A stretch of DNA of 64,000 nt from Phycisphaerae bacterium (GTDB lineage: Bacteria; Planctomycetota; Phycisphaerae; UBA1845; Fen-1342). Below are positions 38,903 to 56,426 of this stretch, in pieces. The stretch lies in NCBI GenBank assembly GCA_017999985.1, contig JAGNKU010000008.1, forward strand, positions 124,001 to 188,000, in the 5' to 3' direction. Each line of letters starts with the position of its first letter. Within the stretch, counting starts at the first letter, position 1. The notes beneath the pieces are model-generated. The model did no database searches, was not told where the DNA came from, and was given only the letters and a program-made list of their open reading frames with translations. Both the position numbers and the translations under genes were made by a program.

Positions 38903-38942
38903 TGGAGAGGTGCCGGAGTGGCCGATCGGGCACGCTTGGAAA
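38903..38942 (+). repeat. attL: 40-bp copy of the 5' half of tRNA-Ser
   Basis: Identical to 58862-58901. It covers the acceptor strand, D-arm and anticodon arm up to the last base of the anticodon loop, but the 3' half of the tRNA is missing here. Confidence 0.93.
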
Positions 38943-39009
38943 TGGTCGCCCGACTTCGGAAACCCCTCTGGTTGCGTCAGAATGCGGTTTTTCTCGCTCA
39001 CTTGGGCGG

Positions 39010-39031
39010 AAAATGCAACGTAAAATGCAAC
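39010..39031 (+). repeat. Left pair of AAAATGCAAC repeats, likely integrase arm sites
   Basis: Two copies of AAAATGCAAC with a 12-base period, 67 bases inside attL. The same pair occurs at the right end (58832-58853) in the same orientation. The rest of 38943-39245 has no gene. Confidence 0.6.
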
Positions 39032-39245
39032 GGATCGGGGGGCGCTTCCGGGGGCATTCGTCCGGTGGCGTTTTGCCCCTGACCCCCTGCCGCTCCGGAA
39101 GCGCCGATGATCCGCCCGATGGGGGCAGGATACCACGGCGGCGGGCGAAAATCGACTACCAAACTTTCGCCTAACGCCTTGGCGGTCGGGGGGCAGGGGC
39201 TTCTAATGCTGGAAACCTGAAGCGGGTCACGCTAGGTTGGCGGCA

Positions 39246-39797
39246 ATGGAGCCGCATCCGCTTGAGGTCAAACTGAACGCGCCCGCGTCCGACATCCTCA
39301 GCGCTATCGAGCGTGGGTTTCGGGCGCAGATTGACGTGAAGGGCAAGCTTGCTGAGCTGTATCTGAGTCGGCGACTTGAGGCGCTTCAAGAGGCAGGCAG
39401 GATCGCGGGCTTTGAATGGCAGGACGTGGACGGCAAGCCGGACTTCATCGTCAAGTATCGAGGGCAGGACTTGATACTTGAATGCAAAAACATCCGGAAT
39501 GAATGTTTCACGCGGCCCGAGCGCTGCTTCAAGGTCGAATTGCAGCGGACCCGCAATAGCAAGGATGGGACGCTGACGCGCGGTTACCGCTTCGATGAAT
39601 TCGACGTGATCGGCGTTTCGCTTTTCAATCAGACCGGCTGTTGGGACTTTCTCTTTGCCCCTGTCCGCCGTCTGGAGCGGCGTCCGGATCGTCCGGAGTT
39701 TCTGACGATCATGCAGCGCGTGCCGGTCACGCCGAATGCGCTTTGGACGCCCGATCCGTTCGCGGCGTTTGATGCTGCCTTGGAGTTACGGCAATGA
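39246..39797 (+). CDS. PD-(D/E)xK restriction endonuclease-like protein
   Basis: 183 residues. [20 protein letters not shown] supplies the D...ExK metal-binding nuclease motif, with a helix-rich N-terminus (about 1-55). Its stop overlaps the start of the DNA methyltransferase gene in ATGA, so the two form a coupled type II-like restriction-modification pair. Its short length is typical for stand-alone type II enzymes. Recognition sequence unknown. It is the first gene inside the left end of the element. Confidence 0.75.
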
Positions 39798-40774
39798 GCC
39801 GACGGAGCGGCTTCAAACTTAAGCGCAAGGCGTTCTTTCAGACCGACCACGGCGCGGCATACCTGGGGGACTCACGCAAGCTGCTCGCCGACATACCGGA
39901 TGGATCGGTCAACCTGATTATGACTTCTCCGCCGTATGCCCTTCACTTCAAGAAAGAATACGGCAACGCCGATCAGGGCGCATACGTCGATTGGTTTCTC
40001 GGATTCGCGGATGATTTCAAGCGCGTCCTGACCGATGACGGCTCGCTTGTGGTCGATATCGGTGGCGCGTGGACGCCCGGCAAACCGACTCGCTCCCTCT
40101 ATCATTTCGAGTTACTGATTGCGCTCTGCCGTCAGGTCGGTTTTCACTTGGCGCAGGAATTCTACTGGTACAACCCTGCCAAGCTGCCCGCGCCCGCCGA
40201 ATGGGTGACCGTCCGCAAGCTGCGCGTGAAGGATGCTGTTAACTGTCTCTGGTGGTTATCGAAATCGGAGAATCCCAAGGCGGACAACCGGCGCGTTCTT
40301 GTCGAATACAGCGCCGATATGAAGCGCCTGATTAAGCGGGGGTATCGGGCGAAGCAGCGCCCGAGCGGTCACAACATCACGGAGAAATTCGGCAAGGATC
40401 AGGGCGGGAGCATTCCGCCGAATATCCTGATCTTCGGTAACAATGACGCCAACGGGACGTATATGTCGCGCTGCAACGAGGCAGGGATCAAACCGCATCC
40501 GGCGCGCTTCCCTCAGCAATTGCCGACGTTTTTCATCCGCTACCTGACGGAGCCGGGCGACGTGGTGCTTGATCCGTTTTGCGGATCGAATACGACGGGC
40601 GAAGCGGCGGAGCGCGAGGGGCGGCGCTGGGTTTCATTCGAGCTGGACGAAACCTACCTGCGCGCCAGCGTCTACCGGTTTGATCCTGCCGGATGGGAGC
40701 CGATAGACCTGTCGAAGCGCAACGGCGACTTGCGCGGGCAGAAAGAGCCGTCCCTGTTTGACCAAACCAAGTGA
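39794..40774 (+). CDS. Beta-class DNA methyltransferase (m4C or m6A)
   Basis: 326 residues. The catalytic motif [11 protein letters not shown] comes first (about residue 50) and the AdoMet motif [14 protein letters not shown], near residue 260, which is the beta-class permuted order; TSPPY favours N4-cytosine. The target-recognition region lies between. It overlaps the endonuclease gene by four bases and should protect DNA from it. Full length and both motifs intact. Confidence 0.9.
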
Positions 40775-40786
40775 GAGGGCACGCCG

Positions 40787-41020
40787 ATGGGGCTTTTTGA
40801 TTTCTTCACGCGACTTTTTCGCGGCGGGCCGGAGAAAGTCGGATGGGAAGATGGGGGCGCTGCGATTAAGAGCGTCGCGGACGGCCCGGATGCCGTCAAC
40901 CGCGCTCACGAATTCGCCCGCCAAAACGGCGTGACGATCGCGCCGGGCAATCCGTCACAATTCAGGACGCGTGACGGCATTACCTACTTGAAATTCACGG
41001 TGGACAAGCCGCCGTCCTGA
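40787..41020 (+). CDS. Small hypothetical protein
   Basis: 77 residues, 12 bases after the methyltransferase stop. It starts with an amphipathic MGLFDFFTRLFRGG, followed by a compact alpha/beta-like segment (AHEFARQNGVTIAPGN ... TYLKFTVDKP). No family is recognised. Position suggests co-transcription with the restriction-modification genes. Confidence 0.55.
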   Translation: MGLFDFFTRLFRGGPEKVGWEDGGAAIKSVADGPDAVNRAHEFARQNGVTIAPGNPSQFRTRDGITYLKFTVDKPPS

Positions 41021-41053
41021 TCCGCCAGCGGAAGTCACGCCAACGGATAGCTC

Positions 41054-41081
41054 TTGATTTGAGCCTGAAATCTGGTACGAT
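41054..41081 (+). promoter_or_regulatory. Promoter of the 41258-42954 pair
   Basis: TTGATT, 16 bases, TACGAT. It gives a leader of about 170 bases before ATG 41258. Confidence 0.55.
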
Positions 41082-41088
41082 GCGCGCC

Positions 41089-41257
41089 ACAAGTGAATAA
41101 CAGGTTGACCGTGGTCGATTGTTTCGACAGCCCGTCAACCGGTGTGACCATCCCCCGCTTGGTTCCCCTTCAATGGGGAGCGCGGCATCTGCTCCGTCCT
41201 AGGGAAATGGGCAGAGAACGGCGCGAGGTCTCCCACCTATAGGGAGATTTTGCGCTC
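41089..41257 (+). promoter_or_regulatory. Structured leader RNA with start-site hairpin
   Basis: 41103-41109 pairs with 41134-41140 (GGTTGAC/GTCAACC) and encloses 41114-41118 with 41124-41128 (GTCGA/TCGAC). Near the start, TCTCCC (41229-41234) pairs with GGGAGA (41242-41247), hiding AGGGAG, the ribosome binding site of ATG 41258. This is the layout of a translational switch; its signal is unknown. Confidence 0.45.
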
Positions 41258-42058
41258 ATGCCAGCCCAATCTCTTCAACGCACGCGCCCGAAGTCCGCGC
41301 CCCACGTCACCGTAACGTCAACGCCGTCCGATGCGACCATTGAGGACACGTCTGTCCACAAAGAGACAGCAGTCTGTCCGCTTCCGGATGATGCCGTCCG
41401 ATTATTGCGCGACGCGCTTGACGCGCCCCTGCCCGAGCCGGACGCGCCCGATGCAATCAAGGTCAAGTTTGTCGGCAAGCTCCATCGCGCCATTGAATGC
41501 GTGGGCAAGGTCGATCTTGAGCTTGCCTGCCGCAACGGTCAGGTGCTCGCAACCATCAAGCAGCGCGAGAAAAACGCCCACGGATGGGAAGCGTGGGCAG
41601 AATCGAAACTGCCCTTCAGCATCAAAACCGCCAACCGGTATATCGCGGTTTACGAAGGTCGCGAGCATCAGCGCGAGATTGCGCCGACAGACCCGCTGCC
41701 GGTCGGACTTTGGGAAGCCTACAAGCGCTATGGAGTCGTGACGGAGGCGACGGAGCCGACGGAGCCGCGCACCAAGGGCAAGCACAAGGGAAAGGGCAAG
41801 AGCAAGGGGACGCGCAAGGCGCTTGACAGGGACGTTGCGCCATTGGGCAGGGTCTATGATCTTCTGCGCGATTACCGGCGCGTCACGATCAAACACGGCA
41901 AGGTCTTTTTGCAGGGGGACGCGGCGCGATACCGCAAGATCGCCACGTCTTGCCTGACCTACGTTGCCAAGATCGAAGCGGAAGTCGCGGAGCTGCGAAA
42001 AGTCCTGACCCAAGCGGCAGCGGCGCTCGCGAAGACTCCGAAGGGGGTGAAGGTATGA
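41258..42058 (+). CDS. DUF3102-like phage protein
   Basis: 266 residues. The centre (about 75-145; VDLELACRNGQVLATIKQRE, SIKTANRYIAVYE) resembles the DUF3102 domain found in phage and plasmid proteins, with a helix-turn-helix-like feel. A Lys/Gly-rich linker (about 165-190) and a C-terminal helical segment follow. It overlaps the next methyltransferase by four bases. Function not known; DNA binding is plausible from the basic linker. Confidence 0.5.
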   Translation: MPAQSLQRTRPKSAPHVTVTSTPSDATIEDTSVHKETAVCPLPDDAVRLLRDALDAPLPEPDAPDAIKVKFVGKLHRAIECVGKVDLELACRNGQVLATIKQREKNAHGWEAWAESKLPFSIKTANRYIAVYEGREHQREIAPTDPLPVGLWEAYKRYGVVTEATEPTEPRTKGKHKGKGKSKGTRKALDRDVAPLGRVYDLLRDYRRVTIKHGKVFLQGDAARYRKIATSCLTYVAKIEAEVAELRKVLTQAAAALAKTPKGVKV

Positions 42059-42954
42059 CGCGCCGCAACATCTATGCGCCCTTGCTCCGCGCCCCCGGCG
42101 CAAAGACCCGGTTTGGCGCGAAATGCGTTTCCCTGATGCCTGCCGATACGTTGGAATTCAGGGAGCCGTTTTGCTTCTCTGCTGCCGTTTACGCTCGCGT
42201 CCCGCCCACGATCCGACGATGGATCAGCGATGTAAATCCCGCTTATGCTGACTTCTACCGGTGGGTCGCGACCGATCCGAGCGCGCCCGCCCTCATAGAA
42301 ACCGTCCGGCGCTTCGCGACCACGGACGAGCGCCAACGGATCGTCTATTTCTCCGCGTATTTTGGGCAGGCAGAGCGCGGATATCCGCTGCCGCTCGAAA
42401 CCTTGATCCTGACGCGCCACGGTTATTGCGGCATCATCAGGCGCAAGCCCAATCATTCTCCCGCTGCTCACAAAAACGGTATGCGCGTGGTCAGTCCGGA
42501 GCGCGTCGCCTACTGGCGCGCCATCCTGCCAGGGACGCGGATAACCTGCGCCGACTACGAAGAGGTTGTGCTCGCGCCCGGACGCAACGTCACGATTTAC
42601 CTTGACCCCCCTTACCTCTTGGGGGCGCGCCGTGACCACGGACAGCCCGTCTACCCCGGTTTCGATTGGGGATGGCGAGACTACCTACGTCTCGCGGAAG
42701 TCCTGAGGCGCTGCCCCCATCGGTGGATTATGACCGTGGATCAGAGCGTCCAGATGTATGACCTGTTTCGCAACGTTTCGGGCGCTCGATTTCTGCGGCG
42801 CGACTATACCGGCAGCGTCAATACCCCCAATCCCAAGCACGAATGGGTCATTACCAATTACAATCCACGGACAGTAGCGCGCCTGCAACCGGTCACTCGC
42901 GAGCAGGCATACGGACTTGCAACCTCTGTGTCCACGATTGGGGCCACAGAATAA
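42055..42954 (+). CDS. D12-class (Dam-like) adenine DNA methyltransferase
   Basis: 299 residues. PLLRAPGAKTRFGAKCVSLM matches the N-terminal AdoMet region of Dam-like enzymes, and YLDPPYLLG is the catalytic DPPY motif. The motif I usually reading EPFxGxG is EPFCFSAAV here, so the glycine loop is altered and activity uncertain. The start at 42055 overlaps the upstream stop. It has no endonuclease partner, so it is an orphan methyltransferase that could mark or protect element DNA. Confidence 0.75.
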   Translation: MTRRNIYAPLLRAPGAKTRFGAKCVSLMPADTLEFREPFCFSAAVYARVPPTIRRWISDVNPAYADFYRWVATDPSAPALIETVRRFATTDERQRIVYFSAYFGQAERGYPLPLETLILTRHGYCGIIRRKPNHSPAAHKNGMRVVSPERVAYWRAILPGTRITCADYEEVVLAPGRNVTIYLDPPYLLGARRDHGQPVYPGFDWGWRDYLRLAEVLRRCPHRWIMTVDQSVQMYDLFRNVSGARFLRRDYTGSVNTPNPKHEWVITNYNPRTVARLQPVTREQAYGLATSVSTIGATE

Positions 42955-42989
42955 TTTTCAGATTTCCGCGAGATTTCTTTCGACCCGCC

Positions 42990-43018
42990 TTGGCGGCGGA
43001 CTCGCCCATATATATAGG
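42990..43018 (+). promoter_or_regulatory. Candidate promoter for the 43104 gene
   Basis: TTGGCG, 17 bases, TATAGG, in an AT-rich patch just after the Dam-like gene. Confidence 0.4.
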
Positions 43019-43027
43019 TAGAGTAGT

Positions 43028-43090
43028 GGTCAGGGCGGAGCGCCTGACCGGTTGACAGGGGCAGGACAACAGGGATGTTGTGCCTGCCCC
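43028..43090 (+). promoter_or_regulatory. Tandem stable hairpins in the leader of 43104
   Basis: GGTCAGG (43028) pairs with CCTGACC (43043). GGGGCAGG-ACAACA (43058-43071) pairs with TGTTGT-CCTGCCCC (43076-43090, one bulged G), with a GGGA loop. The second hairpin covers a possible GTG start at 43080, which supports GTG 43104 as the true start. Confidence 0.5.
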
Positions 43091-43103
43091 CGGAGATTAC
43101 GCC

Positions 43104-43283
43104 GTGAAGCAGTCTTTAGACGAGCAATTGGACGCAATAGCAGCACAGATAGAGGCAGCGCCCAAGGGCGCGGCATTCGACCTGAATGTTGAGGAGGATG
43201 ATGATGGACAGCCCGTCAAGGTATGGGTGACGCCGAAGGATGCACCACGATATCCCCTTGTCCCTGTTTCGCGCCCTGAGTGA
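43104..43283 (+). CDS. Small acidic hypothetical protein
   Basis: 59 residues from GTG 43104, with GGAG eight bases upstream. GTG 43080 is an alternative start but is buried in a 14-bp hairpin. The product begins VKQSLDEQLDAIAAQIEAAP and has an acidic NVEEDDDGQPVKVWV strand pair. No family recognised. A 7-bp hairpin (43271-43289) overlaps its stop. Confidence 0.45.
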   Translation: MKQSLDEQLDAIAAQIEAAPKGAAFDLNVEEDDDGQPVKVWVTPKDAPRYPLVPVSRPE

Positions 43284-43300
43284 GGGCGCTTGTACCCGAA

Positions 43301-43356
43301 GCCCGCCCCTGCCGGTCTACGCGCGCCGGTTGCATCAGGGGCGGGCGCTCATTTTC
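43301..43356 (+). terminator. Hairpin terminator candidate
   Basis: GCCCGCCCCTG (43301-43311) pairs perfectly with CAGGGGCGGGC (43336-43346), followed by GCTCATTTTC. It would end transcripts from the 43104 gene just before the large RNA promoter. Confidence 0.5.
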
Positions 43357-43384
43357 TCAGCGGGCAGAAAAATCTTTCGCAGAA

Positions 43385-43415
43385 AAGAGGGCTCGCGCAA
43401 GAAACGTTGTATAAT
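43385..43415 (+). promoter_or_regulatory. Promoter of the large structured RNA
   Basis: AAGAGG (43385-43390), 19 bases, perfect TATAAT (43410-43415) directly preceded by GTTG. The same AAGAGG-19-TATAAT arrangement with GTTG occurs at 55633-55663 before a small RNA. Confidence 0.6.
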
Positions 43416-43419
43416 TACG

Positions 43420-44100
43420 CATGGGAAGATGGTCTAAGGGCAACAGAAAGAGTAGAAAAGACATTCCGCTCGTTCTGTTGCCCCCAAAACAGCGGACCAT
43501 CAGCCCCACGGTAAGCGACCCTTGCCGTGGGGCATCCCATTTCTACAATCAATTAACCCTTGGGCTCCCGTAGGGTCGGGCGTGAAACACGGCAAGAAAG
43601 CCCCCTCGCGCAAGCGACGGATCGCCGACGGAAGCGAATAGCAGAAGAAAACTGCGGCAACAAATTGCAAGTCACGTCTCTACCCTGCGCGGATGCAATG
43701 GGATGACGTGGCACTCCGACGTAGCAGAGCGTATGCCGGATCGTCCTGGGGCTGTGACCACTATACTACAGGGCGGTCTTAAGCACGTCACTTCGCAGGG
43801 ATAGTCCGGGAGAGCGAAGAAAAACAAGCCCGGTAGTCGGTCGGCTCCATACTTCGACGACAGAGCCGACGTTAAACCACTACCTATTTCCTAATAGGGA
43901 GTGGTCTCTCCACCTTCTCTGACAGGCTTGAAGGGACAAGCGCTCAACAGGCTTGAAGGGACAAGCGCTCGATAATCGCTTATGACACAGCGAATAAGAC
44001 TGGCGTGATGGGTTACTGGGTCAAACGGGCTATCCGATGCTCTGATAAGCGAAGCGATTAGAGCATCGAATGGGCTGAGCAGTCTAGGAAACCGAAGAAC
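43420..44100 (+). ncRNA. Large ornate structured RNA candidate (about 690 nt)
   Basis: There is no credible gene here. Stems seen: a closed multibranch domain, 43421-43426 with 43535-43540, holding 43428-43434/43495-43501, 43438-43446/43475-43483 (9 bp) and 43503-43515/43521-43533 (13 bp); 43606-43617 capped by GCAA; 43641-43644/43652-43655; 43671-43678/43705-43712; pseudoknot 43791-43796/43814-43819 crossed by 43806-43810/43829-43833; 43840-43847/43863-43870 (8 bp); 43876-43887/43894-43905; two identical hairpins in 43922-43970; 43997-44002/44080-44085 enclosing 44035-44043/44060-44068 (9 bp). The loop of the last stem can pair with 43973-43983. Size, intricacy and phage setting resemble GOLLD/ROOL RNAs; family identity is unproven. 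Confidence 0.7.
43922..43970 (+). repeat. Two tandem copies of a 24-base hairpin unit
   Basis: ACAGGCTTGAAGGGACAAGC plus CTC repeats twice with a 25-base period. Each copy folds GCTTG/CAAGC with loop AAGGGA. The loop is complementary to CCCTT at 43557-43561. Confidence 0.85.
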
Positions 44101-44113
44101 GAAAGGAAACCAT

Positions 44114-44386
44114 ATGACAAATGCAGAGTATGAAGCGCTAATTCACAGATGGGAACAGCAAGCGATGAAAGCAGCGGGAGTAAATCGAGAGTATATGGAA
44201 ACGTATTCTCAGGCGTTACTGAATTCAAATCGTAAGACTGATAAGCAAAGAGAAGCAGAAGCAGTGAGCAAGTCTGGTTATATCAAGTTACAGGCAGAAA
44301 CAGAGAAGATCAAGGCAGACGCGCTGTTGCTTGTGATTAAGAGAATATTGTGTATAAAAGAACCGGAAAGTAAAGTCGCAATTTAA
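44114..44386 (+). CDS. Small AT-rich helical protein following the large RNA
   Basis: 90 residues, with AGGAAA seven bases before the ATG. Its base composition is clearly lower in GC than the genes around it, and it uses AGA, ATA and TTA codons, which suggests separate acquisition. The product is charged and almost entirely helical (NREYMETYSQALLNSNRKTD, KLQAETEKIKADALLLVIKR), coiled-coil-like, and of no family I know. It begins about 14 bases after the RNA structure and may be co-transcribed with it. A role as RNA partner is a guess. Confidence 0.65.
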   Translation: MTNAEYEALIHRWEQQAMKAAGVNREYMETYSQALLNSNRKTDKQREAEAVSKSGYIKLQAETEKIKADALLLVIKRILCIKEPESKVAI

Positions 44387-44392
44387 CGAAGG

Positions 44393-46777
44393 TCATAACG
44401 ACCCAGGGCGTTTCTCCGTCTGATACTTTGTCGCCTGAGGAAACGGACTTGGTAGGTCATTCTCTTCAAGCCGGATTAGTTGCGCAAGCCCTTTGTTAAT
44501 CTCTTTGAGCTGGTCAACCTTGCGTCCTTGGTTACGGACGCGCTCTACGCGATCGTGATACTCGCGGTAAACGGGACCGTAAATCTGACTTGCAGGGACA
44601 GGCATACCGGTCTTATTCCACGGCTCCGGGTAGAGCGCAGGATTACTGATGCCCAATTCGAGCGCTTTCGCGACGTTGTGGTTGAAGTCGAATAAGACCT
44701 TCTCCCATCGACCCGCGCCAATAATCTGATCCATGCCCTTGTAGGACTGCCTTATCTGCTCGCTCGTCTGGCGCTGCTCCAGCTTCAAGCCCAAAATCTG
44801 AGCCCTGATCTTGTTTGCTTCTATGACCCCTTCCGTGGTGCTCTGATCTATGCTTTCGAGGATTTCAGTCAGGCGGGTGATTTCGACTTGAAGGGTCTGT
44901 TGCAGGGCGCGTAGCTGATTGATCGCGCCTATCGTCCCTAATGGCGTGGTCTCTGCTATCTGCGCCTGGAGCCGGGCGAGCTGAGATACTGACGCTGCCT
45001 CTTGGGCGGACAGGTCAAGGGTTACGCGCTTCGCGGCGTTGTCCTGTAGGCGCTTCAAATTGTCATTCAGGGCATCGACTTCGACTTGGGCTTTCTGCGC
45101 GTCCTGCGCTAACTTCGCGGGCGTGGTTTGCGTGGGGGTCTGCTCTGCCTGTTTGGCGGTTTCTTTCTGCGCGGCATTCAGGGCTTCTATCTGGCGGGTC
45201 AGGGCTTCGCGCCGCTTGCCCATTTCAGCGACGACCTTACGGTCGGTCTCGCTCAAATCATCCGCGCCAAAGAAACGGCGGACGAAACCACGCTTGTGCT
45301 CCTCAGAGTAGCGCCCGATTTCAAGGTCAAGGGTCTGACGCTCGCCCTTCAAGCGGGTTGCCTGATCTTGGGCGGCTTTGTTTCTTTGCGCGATTTCTGC
45401 GAAGCGCGCTTGTTGGGCGTCCGCCCGCTCTTGGGCTTCGATTAGTCCGCCGCGCTCCATCAGGTAGCCCGCGCCCATTCCGGCGCTGAGCCCCACGCCC
45501 ACGGTTGCCGCCGCGACGCCCAAGCCCGCGAGGGCAGCGCCGCCGAGACCTGCCAGGGCGGGCGCTGCCGCGACTCCGCCCGGCGCTGCGAAACCGACGA
45601 TCCGGGGTATGACCTGGGTCGCGGCGCGACCTGCGCCCGCCGCGCCAGCGCCGCCTAAGAGCTTGCCCCCTGCCCATTGCAGACCTTGCTTGCCCGCCCA
45701 TCCGATGCCCTTGACCCCCAGGTAAGCGCCCACCGCGCCCGCGCCGACTTCAAGCCAGGACGCGCCTTGATCCGTCCCGATCTTGCCCGCCCATCCTGCC
45801 GCCTTTTCAATGGCGCTCGCGAGGTTGTCGATTTGGGGCGCGAGCTGATCGGCGAGTTTGACCACGAGCGTATCGAAAGCGTCGCCGATCCGTTGGGCGG
45901 CGCTTTCAAGGTTGGCGGCGGCTCGCAATACCGGGTCCATCGTTTGCGGAGCGCCAGCGAGTCCCTGAGAGGTTTTAAGGGCATTCAGAGCGGTCGTTAC
46001 CGCCATGATGTTCTTGTCCGTCGCCGCGCCCATCAGCGCCCCCCGGACGTTGCCCCCGGCGGCGGTCTCGACAAACTGCCTGAGTTTGTCCGGCTCCAAT
46101 GACTCCGTAACCGCCAGGATGATTTCGTTTGCCCTGTCCAAGCCGATCTTCTCAAGCGCCCGCTGCGCCGCCACGAGTCCGGGCAGCGCTTGCTCGCCCA
46201 AGGCAAACCGGGCGTAGGCGTTCTGCTGCTGAAACCTGCCCGCCAGGTCTGACGCCGCGAGCATATTCCGCCCGCCTGTCAGACCGCGCAACGCGGCGAC
46301 CTGCCCGGGGCCGCCCGCCAAGGCAAGCGCGAATTCCTTTTGGACGGTCTCTTTGATCCGCGAAACCGCCGAGTAGATCAGGGAGCCGCCTGCCAAGAGC
46401 CCAAGGGTCTGTTTCAGGGAGCGCCCAAGTCCGAGACTGGCGCGCCCGAGACCCTGACTCGCCCGGGACGCCTGCGCCGACTCTGACCTGTATTTCCGTA
46501 TTAGGTCAAGCTGCTCGCGCATCGGTTTTTGGGCTTGCTTGATGCTCTGCGCGACTTTCTGTTGGGCGCTCCGGTAGGCGTCCGTCGCCTTGGCAGCAGT
46601 CCGCGCCGCGCTGCCTGACCCCCTGATCGCGCTCTGATATCGCTTGATTGACGCCTCTGCCTTGCGAGTCTGCGCGATGAGGCGGTCAAGATGCTTGACG
46701 ATGTTGTCGCCCTTAAGCGACTCGACCACCTGCAAGATGATCTTCTGTATGACGGGCTCTGTTGCTTCTGTGTCCAT
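44393..46777 (-). CDS. Tail tape-measure-like protein
   Basis: 794 residues, from an ATG at 46777 on the minus strand. Coiled-coil N-terminus (about 1-110), then GLGRASLGLGRSLKQTLGLL and an Ala/Gly-rich hydrophobic centre (about 270-400) containing possible membrane-crossing segments, then a second long coiled coil (about 430-660). This pattern fits phage tape-measure proteins, which set tail length and cross the host membrane. It is the only structural-type gene on this strand and is convergent with 44114 (6 bases apart). A start at 47014 would overlap the divergent gene and is rejected. Confidence 0.65.
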   Translation of the reverse strand: MDTEATEPVIQKIILQVVESLKGDNIVKHLDRLIAQTRKAEASIKRYQSAIRGSGSAARTAAKATDAYRSAQQKVAQSIKQAQKPMREQLDLIRKYRSESAQASRASQGLGRASLGLGRSLKQTLGLLAGGSLIYSAVSRIKETVQKEFALALAGGPGQVAALRGLTGGRNMLAASDLAGRFQQQNAYARFALGEQALPGLVAAQRALEKIGLDRANEIILAVTESLEPDKLRQFVETAAGGNVRGALMGAATDKNIMAVTTALNALKTSQGLAGAPQTMDPVLRAAANLESAAQRIGDAFDTLVVKLADQLAPQIDNLASAIEKAAGWAGKIGTDQGASWLEVGAGAVGAYLGVKGIGWAGKQGLQWAGGKLLGGAGAAGAGRAATQVIPRIVGFAAPGGVAAAPALAGLGGAALAGLGVAAATVGVGLSAGMGAGYLMERGGLIEAQERADAQQARFAEIAQRNKAAQDQATRLKGERQTLDLEIGRYSEEHKRGFVRRFFGADDLSETDRKVVAEMGKRREALTRQIEALNAAQKETAKQAEQTPTQTTPAKLAQDAQKAQVEVDALNDNLKRLQDNAAKRVTLDLSAQEAASVSQLARLQAQIAETTPLGTIGAINQLRALQQTLQVEITRLTEILESIDQSTTEGVIEANKIRAQILGLKLEQRQTSEQIRQSYKGMDQIIGAGRWEKVLFDFNHNVAKALELGISNPALYPEPWNKTGMPVPASQIYGPVYREYHDRVERVRNQGRKVDQLKEINKGLAQLIRLEENDLPSPFPQATKYQTEKRPGSL

Positions 46778-46870
46778 GAATACACATTCGTCGCGCAGAA
46801 AAGATTTCCTGCCAGAATTTTGAAGGAATGGGCGGCGGTCGCGTTGAATGAGTGAAAGAGGAGACCACCA

Positions 46871-47119
46871 ATGGCACGCAAATACATACCACGCGGGACG
46901 CCTGTAGGACGCCCGCCCATTTATCCGCGAGATAGAATTGATGAAGCGGTCAAGGGCATCATCGCCCACGAGCCGCCACGAAAGCCTTACGGTGATACGG
47001 CGCTTGCCGCGCATCTAGAGGCATACCACGGGCTCCGCTGCTCGCCTTATGCCGCGAGGGAGTCGCGCAAGCGACTTGGGATAGAGCCCGCCAGAAAGCG
47101 GTGCAGACGTGACGGGTGA
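46871..47119 (+). CDS. Small basic DNA-binding-like protein
   Basis: 82 residues, with GGAG eight bases before the ATG. It is Arg/Pro-rich, with YGDTALAAHLEAYHGLRCSPYAARESRKRLGI resembling the helix-turn-helix of the RpoN-box or of phage regulators. It is the first gene of the rightward late operon, divergent from the tape-measure gene across 93 bases. A regulator of late transcription would fit, but this is inferred from shape. Confidence 0.5.
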   Translation: MARKYIPRGTPVGRPPIYPRDRIDEAVKGIIAHEPPRKPYGDTALAAHLEAYHGLRCSPYAARESRKRLGIEPARKRCRRDG

Positions 47120-47369
47120 TCGTTACCGCAATCTGCGCTCCAAGGCAATCGTATTCAGCTCTTGGGAGCCGATCGCGGCGACCGTCAGAAGCGGCAAGCG
47201 GAAGCCGGTTGAAGGGTCAAAGGGCATCGTGACGATTTCGTTTCGCAGAAACCCCGGCAAGTATACGTATCGGCTCACTCGACCTTTCACGATGAAAGAA
47301 TGGTTGGCGTGGATGAGCGCCAACAGCGTCGGGCGTTGGTGGAATTTCAAATATCTAGGAAGGGTCTGA
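47109..47369 (+). CDS. KTSC-domain-like small protein
   Basis: 86 residues from a GTG that overlaps the previous gene by 11 bases. The C-terminal part (YTYRLTRPFTMKEWLAWMSA then GRWWNFKYLG) resembles the KTSC domain, a small fold common in phage and often linked to nucleic acid. Function unknown. Confidence 0.5.
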   Translation: MTGDRYRNLRSKAIVFSSWEPIAATVRSGKRKPVEGSKGIVTISFRRNPGKYTYRLTRPFTMKEWLAWMSANSVGRWWNFKYLGRV

Positions 47370-47372
47370 CCT

Positions 47373-47636
47373 ATGAAGGAAGCAATTGGACACGTCGTTT
47401 TTGAAATCAGGCGCGGTGAAGGGCTCGCCACGATGACCATCTGGACGGACGGAAGCGAAATGACCGTCTCAGTCCTGCCGGAAGCCCTACAGGCGTTGTC
47501 TCTTGGACTTGGCGAAATGGCAGGACAGGACGAAGGATATCGCGCCTATGTCGCTGATATCTTCACCAACCCTGACTTGCCCGATGATACTCCGGAGCCG
47601 GAGCCCGCCGACGGTGGGCTATCGTTAATCGACTAG
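47373..47636 (+). CDS. Small hypothetical phage protein
   Basis: 87 residues, three bases after the previous stop. A beta-rich N-terminus (GHVVFEIRRGEGLATMTIW) is followed by a helix and a Pro/Asp/Glu-rich tail. No family recognised. Placed in the late operon upstream of the terminase genes. Confidence 0.5.
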   Translation: MKEAIGHVVFEIRRGEGLATMTIWTDGSEMTVSVLPEALQALSLGLGEMAGQDEGYRAYVADIFTNPDLPDDTPEPEPADGGLSLID

Positions 47637-47646
47637 GACGGTAACA

Positions 47647-48135
47647 GTGAGAGAATACGAATTAGCTACAACGTGGGGACTGCCGAAACAATCGTGGCTT
47701 GTGACGCGCCACGAGCGCGAGCGCTTCGGGCGGATGCTCCGCAAATGGAAGCGCGAAAACCCCAAGGCGACATTGATACAAGAAATGCTCGCCGAGTCCC
47801 TTGTCCGCCTGCATATCTGGGAGCAACGCCTCGTAGATCGGCGGACATTCTTTGACGGCGAGCGGACGGACTACCAAGAGGTAGCAGACCACAAGCCCGA
47901 CGTGGATACCGAAGACCTAGAGCGCAAGATGAAAGAATGGAAAGAGCTTATGCCGCTCGTGATTAAATGGAAAACAGAGCTGCTGAAGCTTGCCCTTGCC
48001 AATGGCGTCAACCTGCAAATCACAGGGGACGCCCGAAACGTGAGCGCCCTATTCGGCGCGCTCGATCAGTCCGAAAGAGAAAAGGTCAATTCCTACCGTG
48101 GTAGTAGCGGAGAAAACGCGCAAGAAACAGATTGA
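47647..48135 (+). CDS. Small terminase subunit candidate
   Basis: 162 residues, highly charged and helical (HERERFGRMLRKWKREN; TEDLERKMKEWKELM). It directly precedes and overlaps the large terminase gene by 38 bases, the usual place of TerS. No clear helix-turn-helix signature, so the call rests on position and size. Confidence 0.5.
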   Translation: MREYELATTWGLPKQSWLVTRHERERFGRMLRKWKRENPKATLIQEMLAESLVRLHIWEQRLVDRRTFFDGERTDYQEVADHKPDVDTEDLERKMKEWKELMPLVIKWKTELLKLALANGVNLQITGDARNVSALFGALDQSEREKVNSYRGSSGENAQETD

Positions 48136-49576
48136 CCCGGCGCTGATCGTCGCCAGCTTCGATGATGACGAAATCGCCTTGGCGCGGTATCTCCGCGATG
48201 ACCCCGTAGCATTCTGCCGCCACGTCCTGCAAGTCCGCCCCCATCGCAAACAGGTTGAAGTCCTCACGTCGCCATTGGAGCGTCAATCATCGCTGCTGCC
48301 GTGGGGCAGGCAATTCGGCAAGTCAACGGTTATTCGCTGGTACTTGGCTTGGAAGCTGTTTTCGAGCCGTGGATATACCGCCTACGTTATGTCGCCCTCA
48401 GGCGAGCAGTCCGCCAAATTCTTCGAGCGCCTGTTGGACGTATTTGAGCAATCGGCTTACCTGCGGACTTATGCCACCTGGAAGGTCAGCGGGCGGACGC
48501 TTCACGTCGGCGGCGATGAATGGGGCGCATCGGTCGAATGGTTGAAAGTAGGACTTGACGCGTCTAACGTCAGGGGACGCACAATCACAGACGGTAACGG
48601 GCTGGTTGTTTATGACGAAGCCGCCTCATTCCTTTACCCTGAGCAGATAATCGGCGTCACGTTGCCTTTCTGCGCCACGGGCGGCGGAGCCGTCTATCTA
48701 TCATCGCCCGGTGAAATCGGCTCGTATTTCCACGCCCTGTATGAAGACTTCAAGGCGCAAGAGCGCCTTGCCCGTGAGCGCGGCGAGACCCCACGCCACC
48801 GCGTCTATGAGGCAGATTGGCGCGACGTTGACCACCTGTCCGCGGAATTCGTCGCGGAGCAAGAAAGATCGCTCACGGCGCAGGGGCGACGGTGGTTTTT
48901 CGAGCGCGAATATCTCGGGCGCTGGGTCAGGACTGAGGGGGCGTTTTTCAACGCATCAGACGTGAAACTCTGTCACGTCCGCGACCTGCCCCAAGGTGGC
49001 AGCGCCGACACCTGGATTTACTCGCTGGACCCCGGACTTGATAAGAGCCCTGCTGTCCTGATCGTCGCCCGTTGGAACCCTGTCCTGCGCCGCCTTGAAA
49101 TCGGCGAGTTAATCAGTCTCGTGAGGGACGGCAACCGCTACGTCAGGCAGGGGTCAGAGCGGATCGCGGGCTACCCCGACCTACTCGACCTGATCTTGGA
49201 GTTACGGCGGACCCGCCCCATTCACCGGCTCTATTACGACCCCGGCATAGAGCAGACGTTAAGCGAAATGCTCGGCAACCGCTTCGGCGTTGCCACGGAG
49301 CCCGTCCGGGTCGGCGGTTACGCCGCAAAACTAACCGCCTTGCAGGACTTGCAGCGCGCCCTAAGCGCCCAACGGATCGTCTGGCAGGATCATCGAATAA
49401 CGGCGCAATTGTTGGGCTTCTCCGCGCCCGTCAATCCGCTAACCGGGCGTCACGATTTCCCCACGTCGGACGCGGATATCGTGGTCGCGCTCTGCCAGCT
49501 TGCCCGCTACCTGGGGCAGCGCGTGGAAACGCCGTGGGCTTTTGAGGCGGTCACGCGGAAGGGGGCAACGTGGTAG
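48098..49576 (+). CDS. Large terminase subunit
   Basis: 492 residues from GTG 48098. ATPase part: PWGRQFGKST (Walker A-like) and GLVVYDEAA (Walker B), followed by a Ser/Thr-rich coupling motif (AVYLSSPG). The nuclease part has YSLDPGLDKS and a later TSDADIVVALCQ acidic residue. This is the motor that packages DNA into the procapsid. It overlaps the small subunit candidate and the portal gene, indicating a coupled packaging operon. Confidence 0.9.
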   Translation: MVVAEKTRKKQIDPALIVASFDDDEIALARYLRDDPVAFCRHVLQVRPHRKQVEVLTSPLERQSSLLPWGRQFGKSTVIRWYLAWKLFSSRGYTAYVMSPSGEQSAKFFERLLDVFEQSAYLRTYATWKVSGRTLHVGGDEWGASVEWLKVGLDASNVRGRTITDGNGLVVYDEAASFLYPEQIIGVTLPFCATGGGAVYLSSPGEIGSYFHALYEDFKAQERLARERGETPRHRVYEADWRDVDHLSAEFVAEQERSLTAQGRRWFFEREYLGRWVRTEGAFFNASDVKLCHVRDLPQGGSADTWIYSLDPGLDKSPAVLIVARWNPVLRRLEIGELISLVRDGNRYVRQGSERIAGYPDLLDLILELRRTRPIHRLYYDPGIEQTLSEMLGNRFGVATEPVRVGGYAAKLTALQDLQRALSAQRIVWQDHRITAQLLGFSAPVNPLTGRHDFPTSDADIVVALCQLARYLGQRVETPWAFEAVTRKGATW

Positions 49577-50916
49577 GACTACTGCGCCGCCTTTTCGGAT
49601 CGCCTGCCCCTGCGCCCGCGCCTGCCTTTGACGTGGCAGCGGGAGCCCAACGGGTGGTCGATACTCGACTCCTCTTGAATGCCCAGCGCTTCTACGTGGG
49701 CTTGTCCGCGTCGGATCGCCTGGATCTCTTCCGATCCATCTACTACGGGACGCCCCTTGCCGTCGGCGCGGTCAACGTCATTGTCCGGATGACCAATTCT
49801 CGCCCGCGCTTCAATTCCGGCAACCCTGACGTGGATCGGCGCTGCCGTCAGATATGGCAGACCTATCGGCTCCATCAGGTCAATGACTCGCTGATCCGGC
49901 AGAGTCTCATTTACGGCTACAGCATCGGTGAAGTCGTTTGGGGCGAGCGGGAGCCCCTGACCCTGGATCGCGTGGTCGTGCCGCCGTCCTACGAAATCCG
50001 AGTCCTGGCAGACGAGCGCGGGCAGCGGACGGGCTACCTGCAATTGCCGTCTATCGAGTCGATGCGCCCCCTGGATCGTCGGACGATACCGCCCGAGAAA
50101 TGTATCGCGGTCACAAGAGACCCGACAGACCTACAGGACTACTACGGATCATCGCTTTTTGAAAGCGCCGTCGGGCAGTTTGATAGTCTCTGCCAAATCC
50201 TGAAAGCCCAAATCACGGTTATGCAGCGCTTGGGCAAGCCGCGCTTTCAGGTCGCAATACCGACAGAGGGCTTGTCTGAGGAACAATTCCGCGAGCGCCT
50301 GACCGCCGCGAAAAACGTCTTTGCCCAAATCGGCAGCGTTGACGCCGACCTATTTGTGCCTGCCGGAGTCGAAGTGAAGATCATCGGCGGCGAAACCTTG
50401 GGGGTCAAAGTCGCGGATGAAACCCGGCTTGTGGTTTCGATGTTGCTCGCTGCCGTGGGCATCCCGCCCGCGTTGCTTCACGTAACAATAACCGGCTCCG
50501 TGGGGACTGAGAGTTACGCCCGTCAAAGCATTCTCGTTATGCAGAGCATGTTAGACAACATTCAAGAGGCAACGGCGGCGGCGTGGAATACGTCATTCTG
50601 GCGGATCGTCCAACGCCTTGAAGGGATGCCCGTCGCGCCCCAAATGTCGTTTGAAAAGCCGAGACTGCTAGAGCAACAAATAGAGGAGCAAGCCCGCGCG
50701 CTCCGTTGGGAAAACGACCTGACGGAAGTCCGTTACGGAATTCGCGCCCCTGAATGGTTGGCGCAGCGTTGCGGCGCGGATGAAGCATACGACCCCGACT
50801 TACTGGCGGACAAGATCGAAGAGGAGCCGGAAGCGCCCGCCACGCCCGACGCTGCCCGGGCAGAGTCCACAACCAAGGGGACAGACGAGCGGGCAACCGG
50901 CAACAAGGAATTATGA
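49570..50916 (+). CDS. Phage portal protein
   Basis: 448 residues, overlapping the terminase by 7 bases. The centre (about 100-350) matches DUF935/Mu gp29-like portals: PPSYEIRVLADERGQ, KCIAVTRDPTDLQDYYGSSLFESA, then a long helix and an acidic tail. Portals form the ring at the capsid vertex through which DNA passes. The position after TerL supports the call. Confidence 0.85.
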   Translation: MVGLLRRLFGSPAPAPAPAFDVAAGAQRVVDTRLLLNAQRFYVGLSASDRLDLFRSIYYGTPLAVGAVNVIVRMTNSRPRFNSGNPDVDRRCRQIWQTYRLHQVNDSLIRQSLIYGYSIGEVVWGEREPLTLDRVVVPPSYEIRVLADERGQRTGYLQLPSIESMRPLDRRTIPPEKCIAVTRDPTDLQDYYGSSLFESAVGQFDSLCQILKAQITVMQRLGKPRFQVAIPTEGLSEEQFRERLTAAKNVFAQIGSVDADLFVPAGVEVKIIGGETLGVKVADETRLVVSMLLAAVGIPPALLHVTITGSVGTESYARQSILVMQSMLDNIQEATAAAWNTSFWRIVQRLEGMPVAPQMSFEKPRLLEQQIEEQARALRWENDLTEVRYGIRAPEWLAQRCGADEAYDPDLLADKIEEEPEAPATPDAARAESTTKGTDERATGNKEL

Positions 50917-50938
50917 CAGAAACGGAGAAGTAAGATAT

Positions 50939-52051
50939 ATGCCACTACCACTACCAACGGACAAAGAAACGCAGTCGCAGTATGTTGATCGCTGCATCGA
51001 CGATCGCGCCGTTAAGCGGGAGTATCCCAATTCCGCCGAGCGCCGCGACGCCTGCCGCCGCCTTTGGAATACCGCCAAGGCAAAGCGCCACAACCTGCGC
51101 GTGACGCCCATCCGCGAGCATAGCGCTACTGCGCCGGACTTGGACAAGATACGCGCCGTGGCGGGCAACGCCGATCTTGCCGCGGACGATGTTTTTGACT
51201 TCGGCGTCTTCGTTATCGCAAGATCAGGCGTCAACCGCAACGCGACCGACATAACGCCTGAGGGGCAACGCGCCGCCGTAGATGAATGGATCGGCAAGCC
51301 GATTTACTTCCGCGACCACGAAACCGAAGCCGCCAACCAAATCGGGCGCATCTATGACGCCTGGATCGAAGATCAGGCAGGCGAGACCGTCACGATGGGC
51401 AGGGGCTACGGCATCAGGACGGATGACCTGCGCGACGTTTTTGCGCGCATTGAAAACGGAATTCACCGTGAAATGTCCTGCGGTTACGAGCCCGTCCGGT
51501 CGGTCTGTAGCGCCTGCGGTGCAGACCTGGACGCGCCGAGTTTCAACGCCTGCCCCAAGGGGCATCGGGTCGGATCGGACGGCGTTTATGCCCGTGACCT
51601 TGCTTTCGTCCCTGACCATATTTCATTCGTCGGCAGACCTGCCGTTGAAGGGGCGGGCATCGTCTCTGCCGCCGACGTGGTGCGGATCATCCGCCAGTAT
51701 GCCGCCGATCCAACGCCCCCGCCCGAGCTGGCAGGTGTCCTATCAGAGCTGGCGGACGCCCGCGACTTCCGAGACCACGCGCAGGCAGAATTCCGGCGCT
51801 ACGCCCGTAGCAACCTGCCCGACCTGACCGAAAGTGACCTATCCGAAATCTGTGAGCGGCTATCCGCTCGAAACCTACTACGTCTGGCCCGAGCCGAGAA
51901 AGCCCGCTTAACCGCCGACCTGCCAGACGGCAAGCAACTAACGACCGTCGCGCCCGCCCCTGACCCGGAGTCAGGGAGCAGCGCGCCCGAGTATCGCAAT
52001 CTCAAAGACCTGTTTTCCAACCTGAGAGGTAATAAGCAATGGCGAGTGTAA
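50939..52051 (+). CDS. Capsid maturation protease / scaffold candidate
   Basis: 370 residues from ATG 50939, with GGAG upstream. The middle part (about 80-240) resembles phage prohead proteases, with FDFGVFVIARSGVNRNATDI and EWIGKPIYFRDHETEAANQI. A CSACGADLDAPSFNACPKGH cysteine pair-of-pairs looks like a zinc ribbon, unusual in this family. The C-terminal third is helical and may act as scaffold. It lies between portal and capsid genes, as expected. Confidence 0.65.
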   Translation: MPLPLPTDKETQSQYVDRCIDDRAVKREYPNSAERRDACRRLWNTAKAKRHNLRVTPIREHSATAPDLDKIRAVAGNADLAADDVFDFGVFVIARSGVNRNATDITPEGQRAAVDEWIGKPIYFRDHETEAANQIGRIYDAWIEDQAGETVTMGRGYGIRTDDLRDVFARIENGIHREMSCGYEPVRSVCSACGADLDAPSFNACPKGHRVGSDGVYARDLAFVPDHISFVGRPAVEGAGIVSAADVVRIIRQYAADPTPPPELAGVLSELADARDFRDHAQAEFRRYARSNLPDLTESDLSEICERLSARNLLRLARAEKARLTADLPDGKQLTTVAPAPDPESGSSAPEYRNLKDLFSNLRGNKQWRV

Positions 52052-52428
52052 ACCTATCATCCGGCGGCGTCCGCGCCGGAGTCCGGGCGGGCGCAGACCT
52101 GCCCGCCGACAGACTTTTCAAATACAGCAGCATCGAAAACGAAGTCGTTTTATGCGGCGCTGGCGAAGAGGCGGACGGTATCGTCCTGGCGGAAGTCCTG
52201 ACAGGCGAGATTCTGAATGCCGAAGGGGTCTGTTACGCCCGAAAGACCACGGGGACGTTCTCTGACGTGACCATCGGCAGTAACTTCACCTGCGGCGCGG
52301 AGTTTATGTCCGCTGCCGATGGGGTCATAACCGCCTACGTCGCGGCAAGTGACAACCGCCCGCTTGGAAAGTTTCTGAGCAGCGGAAGCAGCGGCGAAAC
52401 CGGCAAGATACTCTTTTATTCGAGGTAA
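52039..52428 (+). CDS. Capsid decoration protein candidate
   Basis: 129 residues, overlapping the protease gene by 13 bases. It is beta-rich with many Gly/Ser (AGVRAGADLPADRLFKY, GEILNAEGVCYARKTTG) and resembles DUF2190-like head decoration proteins. It directly precedes the major capsid gene, the usual location. Confidence 0.6.
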   Translation: MASVNLSSGGVRAGVRAGADLPADRLFKYSSIENEVVLCGAGEEADGIVLAEVLTGEILNAEGVCYARKTTGTFSDVTIGSNFTCGAEFMSAADGVITAYVAASDNRPLGKFLSSGSSGETGKILFYSR

Positions 52429-52434
52429 CAACCA

Positions 52435-53583
52435 ATGGTAAAGACATACGAGAATGATCTCTTCCAACGTCTCGACGCGACCTATGAGCCCGCCGAGACC
52501 TGCGCCCGCCGCTTTACGGCAGGCGACTACTTACGCACCTTCAATGACCCTGCCAAGCGGGCGTCATTCGACAACCTGAAACTCAGCATTCAGACTGACG
52601 GACTAACGCCGCGACGCATCTACGAAGCCAAGGAATGGGCGGACTTCATCCCGACCGTTTACCTGGACCCGATCCTCGAAACGGTCACCTACCGCTCGGT
52701 CGCTTCGCAGCTTGCCAGCACGGCGAGCGTCAATACCGGTCTGACCTTCGTCTACCGGACTTTTGAGCATTTTCAACGGGCGCAGCGCGGAGCCGAGAAT
52801 ACCGAATTCGAGCGCCGCAAGGGTCAACGCGCCGTCCAACAGACGGGCTTTCATACGTTGGGCTTGCGCTCTTACGTGACCGAAGAGGAGACCCTCGATA
52901 TCCCATTCTCCGCGCAGCAGCTTGAGCTAAATACGATGGGCGCGGCAATCGCCCTGGAGCGCGACCTCCTCTGGATGGACGCGCTGCATACCGCGACAGA
53001 CGGGACCAATGCGACCACCTATCACAATCATCTTGTGAGCAAGGCGCAGCTTGACCTTGAAGGGCTCCACGGCGTGTTGACGTGGTTTGCAAGCCCCTTT
53101 GAGGCAGCGCTGACGACCATCGACCTGAGCAACTTTTGGGAGTCAGGGACGGCAGCGGAGCAAGTCGAAGGGCTTATGCGGATCGGTATGTTTCGCCCAA
53201 CCGACGTGTTGGTCAATGCCAAGCTGTATTTCTCGATTGTGAATAACTCATTCTTGCAGCAGCAGAATATATGGACGAATTCGCGCATCCTCGATACCGG
53301 TGAATTGAGCGTCCCCTTGCTTGGCGTCAACATATGGAAGGTCAATACCGGTCACTTTGCCGATGCAAACGACCCCGATAGCTGGGTGCCTACCGATGAC
53401 GTGATTGTCCTGGATCGCCGTATGGGCGGCGGCGGAACCATCAATCAGAAACAACCGCTTCAGGTTAGAAATTGGGCTACGCCTGAATTCCGGACTGAGG
53501 ATTTTATGATCTACGAAAGACTCGGCGTCGCCGTCCAAAACCGACGCTCGCTTGTCCGGATCAGCAACGGAGCCGGGAGCTAA
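52435..53583 (+). CDS. Major capsid protein (HK97-like)
   Basis: 382 residues, 6 bases after the decoration gene. An N-terminal helical arm is followed by E-loop-like and P-domain-like segments (AAIALERDLLWMDALHTA; GMFRPTDVLVNAKLYFSIV; WATPEFRTEDFMIYERLGVA). Size, order in the operon and the closing LGVAVQNRRSLVRI strand fit an HK97-fold coat protein. Sequence similarity by eye is moderate. Confidence 0.8.
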   Translation: MVKTYENDLFQRLDATYEPAETCARRFTAGDYLRTFNDPAKRASFDNLKLSIQTDGLTPRRIYEAKEWADFIPTVYLDPILETVTYRSVASQLASTASVNTGLTFVYRTFEHFQRAQRGAENTEFERRKGQRAVQQTGFHTLGLRSYVTEEETLDIPFSAQQLELNTMGAAIALERDLLWMDALHTATDGTNATTYHNHLVSKAQLDLEGLHGVLTWFASPFEAALTTIDLSNFWESGTAAEQVEGLMRIGMFRPTDVLVNAKLYFSIVNNSFLQQQNIWTNSRILDTGELSVPLLGVNIWKVNTGHFADANDPDSWVPTDDVIVLDRRMGGGGTINQKQPLQVRNWATPEFRTEDFMIYERLGVAVQNRRSLVRISNGAGS

Positions 53584-53584
53584 A

Positions 53585-54085
53585 GTGACGCGTGAGACCT
53601 TCAATAACGTCGAAGAGCTGATTTTGTGGTCGGGCTTCGACCACGGCGCATCATCCGGTCAGGCGAGCGTCACACAAGGGACTTTCGCCTACGGTCAATT
53701 CGAGCGCGCCTTGGACGAAGCCCGCCGAGAAATCTACCGGAAGACCGGGCAACGCCTGAATGATGAATTCGACGAAGATCGCGCCGATGAATTGAAGGAA
53801 GCCGAGCGCTACCTTGCCATTGCCCGCTTAATTCCCAACTACGCGAACCGGATGCAATTAGAGTTTCCGGAGAGCAACCTCGCAAGTGTTGGGGAAGTGA
53901 CTGTTGGCGCGGATACCCCGAGCCCCTACGAAAAAGGCGCGCAATGGATTGAGAAGATGTATAGCGCCTATAGGTCGATGGGGCTTGCGTTGCTCGCCAA
54001 CGCCCGCGACCACGCCGACATAGAGCTAGGCGACGACGTATCCTCTGAGAGTTACCCTTGTCTGTCCCCCTCTCCTTCAGGGTAA
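53585..54085 (+). CDS. Head-tail connector candidate
   Basis: 166 residues from GTG 53585, with GGGAG five bases upstream. It is mainly helical (QFERALDEARREIYRKTGQR; ADELKEAERYLAIARLIPNY), like phage head-completion proteins. It follows the capsid gene. Its last codons lie inside a perfect 12-bp inverted repeat (54047-54090). Confidence 0.55.
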   Translation: MTRETFNNVEELILWSGFDHGASSGQASVTQGTFAYGQFERALDEARREIYRKTGQRLNDEFDEDRADELKEAERYLAIARLIPNYANRMQLEFPESNLASVGEVTVGADTPSPYEKGAQWIEKMYSAYRSMGLALLANARDHADIELGDDVSSESYPCLSPSPSG

Positions 54086-54157
54086 CTCTCAAGAGCCGGG
54101 CGCGGCGAGACGAAGAGGTGTTCCGGCTTCCCACCTTTTCTAACGCCCCCCCGGCTC
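54047..54157 (+). terminator. Nested inverted repeats at the end of the connector gene
   Basis: GAGAGTTACCCT (54047-54058) pairs perfectly with 54079-54090 around a pyrimidine-rich 20-base loop. GAGCCGGG (54093-54100) pairs with CCCGGCTC (54150-54157), followed by GCCCCTTTCTTCT. It could attenuate the late operon. Confidence 0.45.
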
Positions 54158-54182
54158 GCCCCTTTCTTCTAACGGAGCAACT

Positions 54183-54437
54183 ATGACAGACCTTATCAGT
54201 GAAATCGAAACCAACGTCCTAAACATCGCCGAATTGCTAAACGACGCTCGCAGCGACCTGCATCGCCTGGTGCGACTGCGCTTCGCTTGCGAGTCGCAAT
54301 ATCGCGCAATCGAGAATATCGCAGACGAAGAGCAGTATCGCCACCTGCGCCGTCGGCTCTGGACCTGTCAGGCAGCGCTCAATCGCCTCATCGAAGCCGC
54401 GGACTTCGCGCTGCGGCAAAAGGGTTGGGAATGTTAG
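54183..54437 (+). CDS. Small helical phage protein
   Basis: 84 residues, with GGAG six bases before the ATG. Almost all helix (ISEIETNVLNIAELLNDARS; LRRRLWTCQAALNRLIEAA). It overlaps the next gene by 7 bases. No family recognised; position suggests a tail-completion or assembly role. Confidence 0.5.
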   Translation: MTDLISEIETNVLNIAELLNDARSDLHRLVRLRFACESQYRAIENIADEEQYRHLRRRLWTCQAALNRLIEAADFALRQKGWEC

Positions 54438-55531: not shown

Positions 55532-55534
55532 AGG

Positions 55535-55623
55535 TATAATGCGATATCTCTGTCTCTCTGATGGGGGCGGCGGTCACTTCAAAACTCACTCTCCTGTGAT
55601 ACGAACCCGCCGCCCCTTTTCTT
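55535..55623 (+). terminator. Late-operon terminator, or short RNA with its own TATAAT
   Basis: GGGGCGGCGG (55564-55573) pairs perfectly with CCGCCGCCCC (55607-55616), followed by TTTTCTTT, a strong intrinsic terminator 33 bases after the last late gene. A perfect TATAAT at 55535-55540 just upstream means a transcript of about 75 bases could also start here. Confidence 0.7.
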
Positions 55624-55632
55624 TCAAATCAC

Positions 55633-55663
55633 AAGAGGAATGCAACGGACTTTGTTGTATAAT
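55633..55663 (+). promoter_or_regulatory. Promoter of the small RNA at 55670
   Basis: AAGAGG (55633-55638), 19 bases, TATAAT (55658-55663) preceded by GTTG, the same arrangement as at 43385-43415. Confidence 0.6.
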
Positions 55664-55669
55664 GACTTG

Positions 55670-55771: not shown

Positions 55772-55785
55772 GGGCGCTGGCTTCC

Positions 55786-56401: not shown

Positions 56402-56426
56402 TCTGAAACACGAAATACCCTGTTAT

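Follow-up and report, generated by a model that had tools for sequence, protein, structure and literature searches.

A putative 120-nt structured RNA in an ORF-less gap of a capsid-encoding element from a Phycisphaerae bacterium

Introduction

The packaging RNA of phi29, about 120 nt long, has a helix that closes its 5' and 3' ends and a three-way junction, and it belongs to an element with DNA packaging genes. On a larger scale, GOLLD and ROOL are large, multibranched noncoding RNAs (PMC12286853) that have been reported from many phage genomes (PMC7567579). A noncoding transcript of about 800 nt from ICP1 and the inter-inverted-repeat transcript of PLE have been shown by RNA-seq (PMC7567579). 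The ORF-less gaps of phages and satellites can carry the most abundant transcripts of an element, with unknown roles, as is the case for ICP1 and PLE (PMC7567579). The PLE RNA has, in addition, antisense homology to ORF leaders (PMC7567579). Type III toxin-antitoxin and AbiF modules (PMC5086642, PMC12373285) combine a promoter and a structured RNA carrying a tandem repeat with a small ORF that follows on that strand. Here, we analysed a window of 64,000 nt, which is the whole stretch of DNA considered (Phycisphaerae bacterium, assembly GCA_017999985.1, contig JAGNKU010000008.1, positions 124,001-188,000, forward strand). An earlier note on this DNA had described the segment 43420-44100 as a single ornate RNA of about 690 nt, in the style of GOLLD and ROOL, inside a capsid-encoding element. 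A structured noncoding unit in such an element is well supported by a promoter motif, a predicted start that coincides with the first paired base, the structure itself and the lack of a coding signal. The single RNA in the style of GOLLD and ROOL is not well supported, as Rfam is negative, most of the structure signal comes from the first 120 nt and no terminator was seen before a 90-aa ORF.

Results

The element that carries the segment is bounded by a direct repeat.

38903-58861, strand not applicable: integrated capsid-encoding element of 19,959 bp, from the 40-bp flanking repeat and gene matches
38903-38942 and 58862-58901: att-like direct repeat of 40 bp that covers the 5' half of tRNA-Ser(GGA), from repeat comparison

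The right-hand tRNA-Ser(GGA) gene is intact and the element sits on its 5' side. Short AAAATGCAAC repeats, which are possible arm sites of the integrase, are paired at 39007-39034 and 58826-58853, close to both ends. The element encodes a portal protein, a terminase that matches ordinary large-subunit families, a tyrosine integrase (family match), two DNA methyltransferases and a probable HK97-fold capsid protein, for which the match is weak (E 9e-4). The structure of the putative capsid protein, predicted without an alignment, had a pLDDT of 31. Another protein weakly resembles head protease/capsid fusions and a further one is scaffold- or decoration-like. No tail, lysis or replication families were recognised among the element proteins scanned. 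A serine recombinase at 56427-57116 (Pfam Resolvase, E 4.9e-40) adjoins the tyrosine integrase, giving two recombinases in 20 kb. The 873-aa protein encoded at 44393-47014 on the opposite strand is tape-measure-like by eye, with coiled and glycine/alanine-rich stretches, and it matches none of the families of Pfam, PHROGs or NCBIfam. A search for terminase relatives in genomes of the order and the class returned a single 50%-identical fragment, from the class sample, and the 8.4-kb contig of this fragment had no match to the other listed element proteins. With head and packaging genes but none recognised for tail, lysis or replication, the 20-kb element is possibly a capsid-encoding satellite; a small prophage or a remnant would be the other options.

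The segment of interest is preceded by the end of one unit and by a promoter motif.

43301-43356, plus strand: terminator-like hairpin GCCCGCCCCUG/CAGGGGCGGGC that closes the upstream unit, from the sequence
43406-43415, plus strand: promoter motif GTTGTATAAT (-10), from the motif count, with no good -35

The hairpin is missing from the terminator pattern scan, in which loops are limited to 8. The promoter motif includes the perfect TATAAT reported earlier, which is indeed present at 43410-43415. The +1 is expected about 6 nt downstream, near 43421, and this position is the first paired base of helix P1 described below. Within the element, TATAAT occurs three times on the plus strand and never on the minus strand, with a chance expectation of about 1. 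The whole genome (5.23 Mb) contains the decamer GTTGTATAAT four times and its reversed control not once, and two of the four copies lie inside the element, at 43406-43415 and 55654-55663. One of the host copies stands 66 nt upstream of an ORF; the other also precedes a gene, as judged by eye. The -35 match of the 43421 promoter is poor, with at most 2 of 6 positions, which counts against the reading preferred here. A longer similarity upstream of the two motif copies in the element is not significant. From these sequence features, transcription would be driven by the motif at 43406-43415 and would begin near 43421.

The second copy of the motif is followed by another candidate unit.

55654-55773, plus strand: second GTTGTATAAT motif (55654-55663) and, after it, an sRNA-like unit roughly 105 nt long (about 55669-55773), from the motif and folding

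This unit consists of two hairpins, one of which is GCAA-capped, followed by a GC-rich hairpin with the U-rich tail UCUUUCUUUU (z -2.9). Its terminator was read by eye, the pattern scan taking loops only up to 8. No DNA relatives of 55654-55773 were found in 60 related genomes. Past this unit, a gap of about 650 nt without good ORFs contains TTATGTTGGCG repeats at 55990-56204, which could be binding sites for the serine recombinase or another protein.

The first 120 nt after the predicted start fold into a compact domain, hereafter referred to as domain A, with the following helices, all from folding.

43421-43540, plus strand: domain A, a three-way junction RNA of 120 nt and 45 bp, with the predicted +1 at 43421
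43421-43426/43535-43540, plus strand: P1 (AUGGGA/UCCCAU), the helix closing the 5' and 3' ends
43428-43435/43494-43501, plus strand: P2, 8 bp
43438-43448/43473-43483, plus strand: P2b, 11 bp
43503-43515/43521-43533, plus strand: P3, a GC-rich 13-bp hairpin with the loop CGACC

The long arm is made of P2, an asymmetric internal loop and P2b, followed by 4 bp and 3 bp. The stems of the multibranch domain that the earlier note had drawn here were confirmed, and their stability is clearly beyond that of shuffled sequences. The energy of domain A is -67.9 kcal/mol, compared with -32.2 +/- 3.7 kcal/mol in 500 shuffles (z -9.6, 0/500 as stable), and a second test with 200 shuffles gave z -11.4 (0/200 as stable), but these z values are inflated because the boundaries were picked after the fold was seen. 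When 272 windows of 150 nt were scanned on a fixed grid, which is unaffected by the choice of boundaries, the most extreme was 43375-43524 (z -4.95), and the runner-up outside the region starts at 54025 (z -4.65). This other window, 54025-54174, ranks second in stability within the element and lies at the gap between an ORF ending at 54085 and an ORF starting at 54183. The z of domain A is -9.6 on the plus strand and -7.9 on the minus strand. P3 with its tail AUCCCAUUUCU is a possible weak terminator; the U-run past P3 is weak, and the pattern scan (loops up to 8) does not call it. Taken on sequence and folding, it is very likely that the domain starting at 43421 is a real RNA.

The remaining part of the region has a less pronounced structure.

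43569-43689, plus strand: branched stem of 8 bp and 7 bp that encloses small hairpins, from fold prediction
43606-43617, plus strand: GCAA-capped hairpin inside this branched stem, from sequence and fold prediction
43791-43833, plus strand: candidate H-type pseudoknot with an A-rich loop, from the stem search, not clearly beyond chance
43840-43870, plus strand: 8-bp hairpin of high pair probability, from the stem search and fold prediction
43876-43905, plus strand: hairpin of 5 and 6 bp with mismatches between them, of high pair probability, from fold prediction
43922-43945 and 43947-43970, plus strand: two identical 24-nt copies with a spacing of 25, from the repeat scan
44035-44068, plus strand: 12-bp hairpin (44036-44067) of high pair probability, from the stem search and fold prediction

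The full 681 nt have z -7.1 on the plus strand and z -4.9 on the minus strand (20 shuffles each). For 43541-44100 (560 nt) z is -3.0; the values for 15 further windows of this length in the element lie between +0.1 and -2.6. By segment, z is -1.8 for 43541-43733, -0.8 for 43734-43880 and -3.7 for 44000-44100, and the three perfect stems of at least 8 bp with loops up to 20 have p of about 0.01 against shuffles. The dense stems described earlier across 690 nt are therefore there, but it is mainly the first 120 nt that show evidence of selected structure. The hairpins at 43840-43870 and 44035-44068 and the GCAA-capped one at 43606-43617 are all in the sequence. The stems of the crossing pseudoknot, CUUCGC/GCGAAG (43791-43796/43814-43819) and CCGGG/CCCGG (43806-43810/43829-43833), are present too, but a pseudoknot of equal stem lengths occurs in 12% of shuffles, and an equally GC-rich one in 1.6%, so that this feature is not clearly beyond chance. 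What had been read as tandem identical hairpins are indeed identical 24-nt copies, but they are predicted to pair together instead of forming separate hairpins. Scanning for further occurrences of this 24-nt pattern gave no match.

The earlier statement that the region holds no plausible gene is borne out. In 43420-44100, every stop-to-stop frame of at least 30 codons scores negative, from -0.09 to -0.53 per codon, on a scale of element codon usage in which clear genes score 0.16 to 0.32 but also trained the table. The next ORF on the same strand is the candidate product of the same transcript.

44114-44386, plus strand: 90-aa ORF with an RBS-like AAGGA 6 nt before its ATG

The encoded protein is predicted to be helical. 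The ORF has 41% GC, compared with 55% in the RNA region, and a codon score of -0.35, which suggests that it was recently acquired or is not translated. No relative of it turned up in 391 further genomes from the phylum, and it has no toxin family match and one weak JetA match (E 0.003). No terminator is evident before 44114 in the pattern scan (loops up to 8), so the structured unit may be a leader.

Searches for known families and homologs gave no relative of the region. Rfam 15 has no match in 43420-44100 at gathering thresholds, and up to E 10 on both strands only chance matches were obtained (three miRNA models and PhrS); no known riboswitch family was matched up to E 10. The covariance models of GOLLD, ROOL and OLE, proposed earlier as a check, were negative even at E 10. 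As no large RNA of Rfam is matched, membership in GOLLD, ROOL, OLE or HEARO finds no support. Homologous intergenic regions, which were to be collected for comparison, were not found in phages, plasmids or 396 other class genomes: blastn against phages and plasmids gave no homolog, and neither did a DNA search of 61 related and 397 class genomes, in which six matches of 22-35 nt were judged to be chance. A single-sequence covariance model of domain A, run on the genomes of the bacterium itself, the order and the class, matched only domain A and its own reverse complement. Scans of viral and genome contigs anchored on the terminase, portal, capsid, 873-aa, 90-aa and integrase proteins gave no RNA homolog. 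Pattern matches to the P2b arm in two near-identical viral contigs were rejected as a simple terminator-like hairpin.

Known modes of action were also compared. The longest Watson-Crick run to element transcripts is 12 for the plus strand and 13 for the minus strand, and the maximum of the null, which was built for the plus strand only, has a mean of 11.5 and reaches 14. An antisense RNA of the P4, P1 C4 or PLE type is not supported, since the complementarity is not above the shuffled control. Nor is a CsrB-type sponge for CsrA, with 14 GGA and an element mean of 13.1 +/- 4.4; ANGGA motifs number 7 in the region and 3.1 +/- 2.1 in the element. A type III toxin-antitoxin is not supported either, as the 90-aa ORF after the repeats matches no known toxin family.

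Discussion

The promoter motif, the absence of a coding signal and a structure beyond that of shuffles place the locus in the general kind of phage-encoded structured noncoding RNA, and the RNA is probably a new one of this known kind. The reading that we prefer, to which we give about an even chance, is an independently transcribed orphan RNA made of a small RNA of about 120 nt and a read-through into a leader, similar to ROOL and GOLLD only in its setting. Transcription would start near 43421 from GTTGTATAAT, right past the terminator-like hairpin of the upstream unit, and the first 120 nt would form the compact three-way junction with the 5' end sealed inside P1. P3, which adjoins P1, would probably pause or partly terminate the RNA polymerase and leave a stable small RNA of about 120 nt. 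Read-through would yield a less structured leader of about 570 nt and, at 44114, the small helical protein. In the manner of a phage 'moron', the unit would have a promoter of its own and so would possibly be expressed in the lysogen. Most likely, the RNA is untranslated, is structural or protein-binding rather than antisense to the element, and either ends near 43540 or continues as the leader of the 90-aa ORF. We infer its transcription, 3' end and mode of action; protein binding by domain A is a guess, reached by elimination.

It is unlikely, if still worth weighing, that domain A and the later hairpins are simply a long 5' UTR through which the 90-aa ORF is regulated in cis, by translation or attenuation. 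The common strand, the RBS-like site 6 nt from the ATG and the absence of an intervening terminator agree with such a leader, and P3 could attenuate. However, the ORF has atypical codon use (-0.35) and no relatives, no two-structure switch was found and no known riboswitch family is matched. Somewhat more doubtful is one noncoding RNA of about 690 nt that forms a single folding unit, is ended or processed before 44114 and possibly oligomerises like ROOL and GOLLD. Its length, the ORF-less gap, the full-length z of -7.1, the remainder at z -3.0, slightly past the controls, and a pseudoknot together with self-complementary tandem copies would suit such a molecule. However, 120 nt give most of the signal, 43541-43733 and 43734-43880 being at z -1.8 and -0.8, no large RNA of Rfam is matched and no terminator is seen before 44114. 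That the transcript of about 690 nt would be the first known representative of a separate class of large ornate phage RNAs, with a 5' folding core formed by domain A and with assembly contacts made by the pseudoknot and the self-complementary tandem copies, is a long shot. If the whole 690 nt turned out to form one folded RNA and to have homologs, it would join the handful of ornate RNA classes known. Least probable of all is a site for replication origin, packaging or recombination, at which the inverted repeats and tandem copies would act as DNA, either double- or single-stranded. In its favour, a good fold is also predicted for the reverse complement of domain A (z -7.9), and the two 24-nt direct copies adjoin an AT-richer stretch. 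Against it, the promoter motif is placed exactly so that the first paired base would be the start, the fold is a three-way junction whose arms are unequal and include U-G pairs and not a palindrome, the direct copies are only two and no replication protein is recognised.

With the orphan RNA as the preferred reading, the ORF-less gap of the element contains a 120-nt domain that is very stable, has sharp boundaries and follows a predicted start site, and the same element has a possible second RNA behind the same rare GTTGTATAAT motif. The locus shares with GOLLD and ROOL a phage-type carrier (terminase, portal, capsid-type protein, integrase and att-like repeats), a setting that is common to many unrelated RNAs; it differs in having no covariance-model match at E 10 and no homologs, and in its signal being concentrated in 120 nt. 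The order of promoter, structured RNA with a tandem repeat and small ORF is that of type III toxin-antitoxin and AbiF modules, but here there are only two copies, no terminator is seen before the ORF and there is no toxin family. Domain A and the phi29 packaging RNA are alike in architecture only; the terminase of the element matches ordinary large-subunit families, and there is no Rfam match. The RNAs of ICP1 and PLE were proven by RNA-seq, whereas the one described here is predicted from sequence and its antisense homology to the element is not above chance; what it has in common with them is a noncoding RNA placed in an ORF-less gap of a phage or of a satellite that exploits phages.
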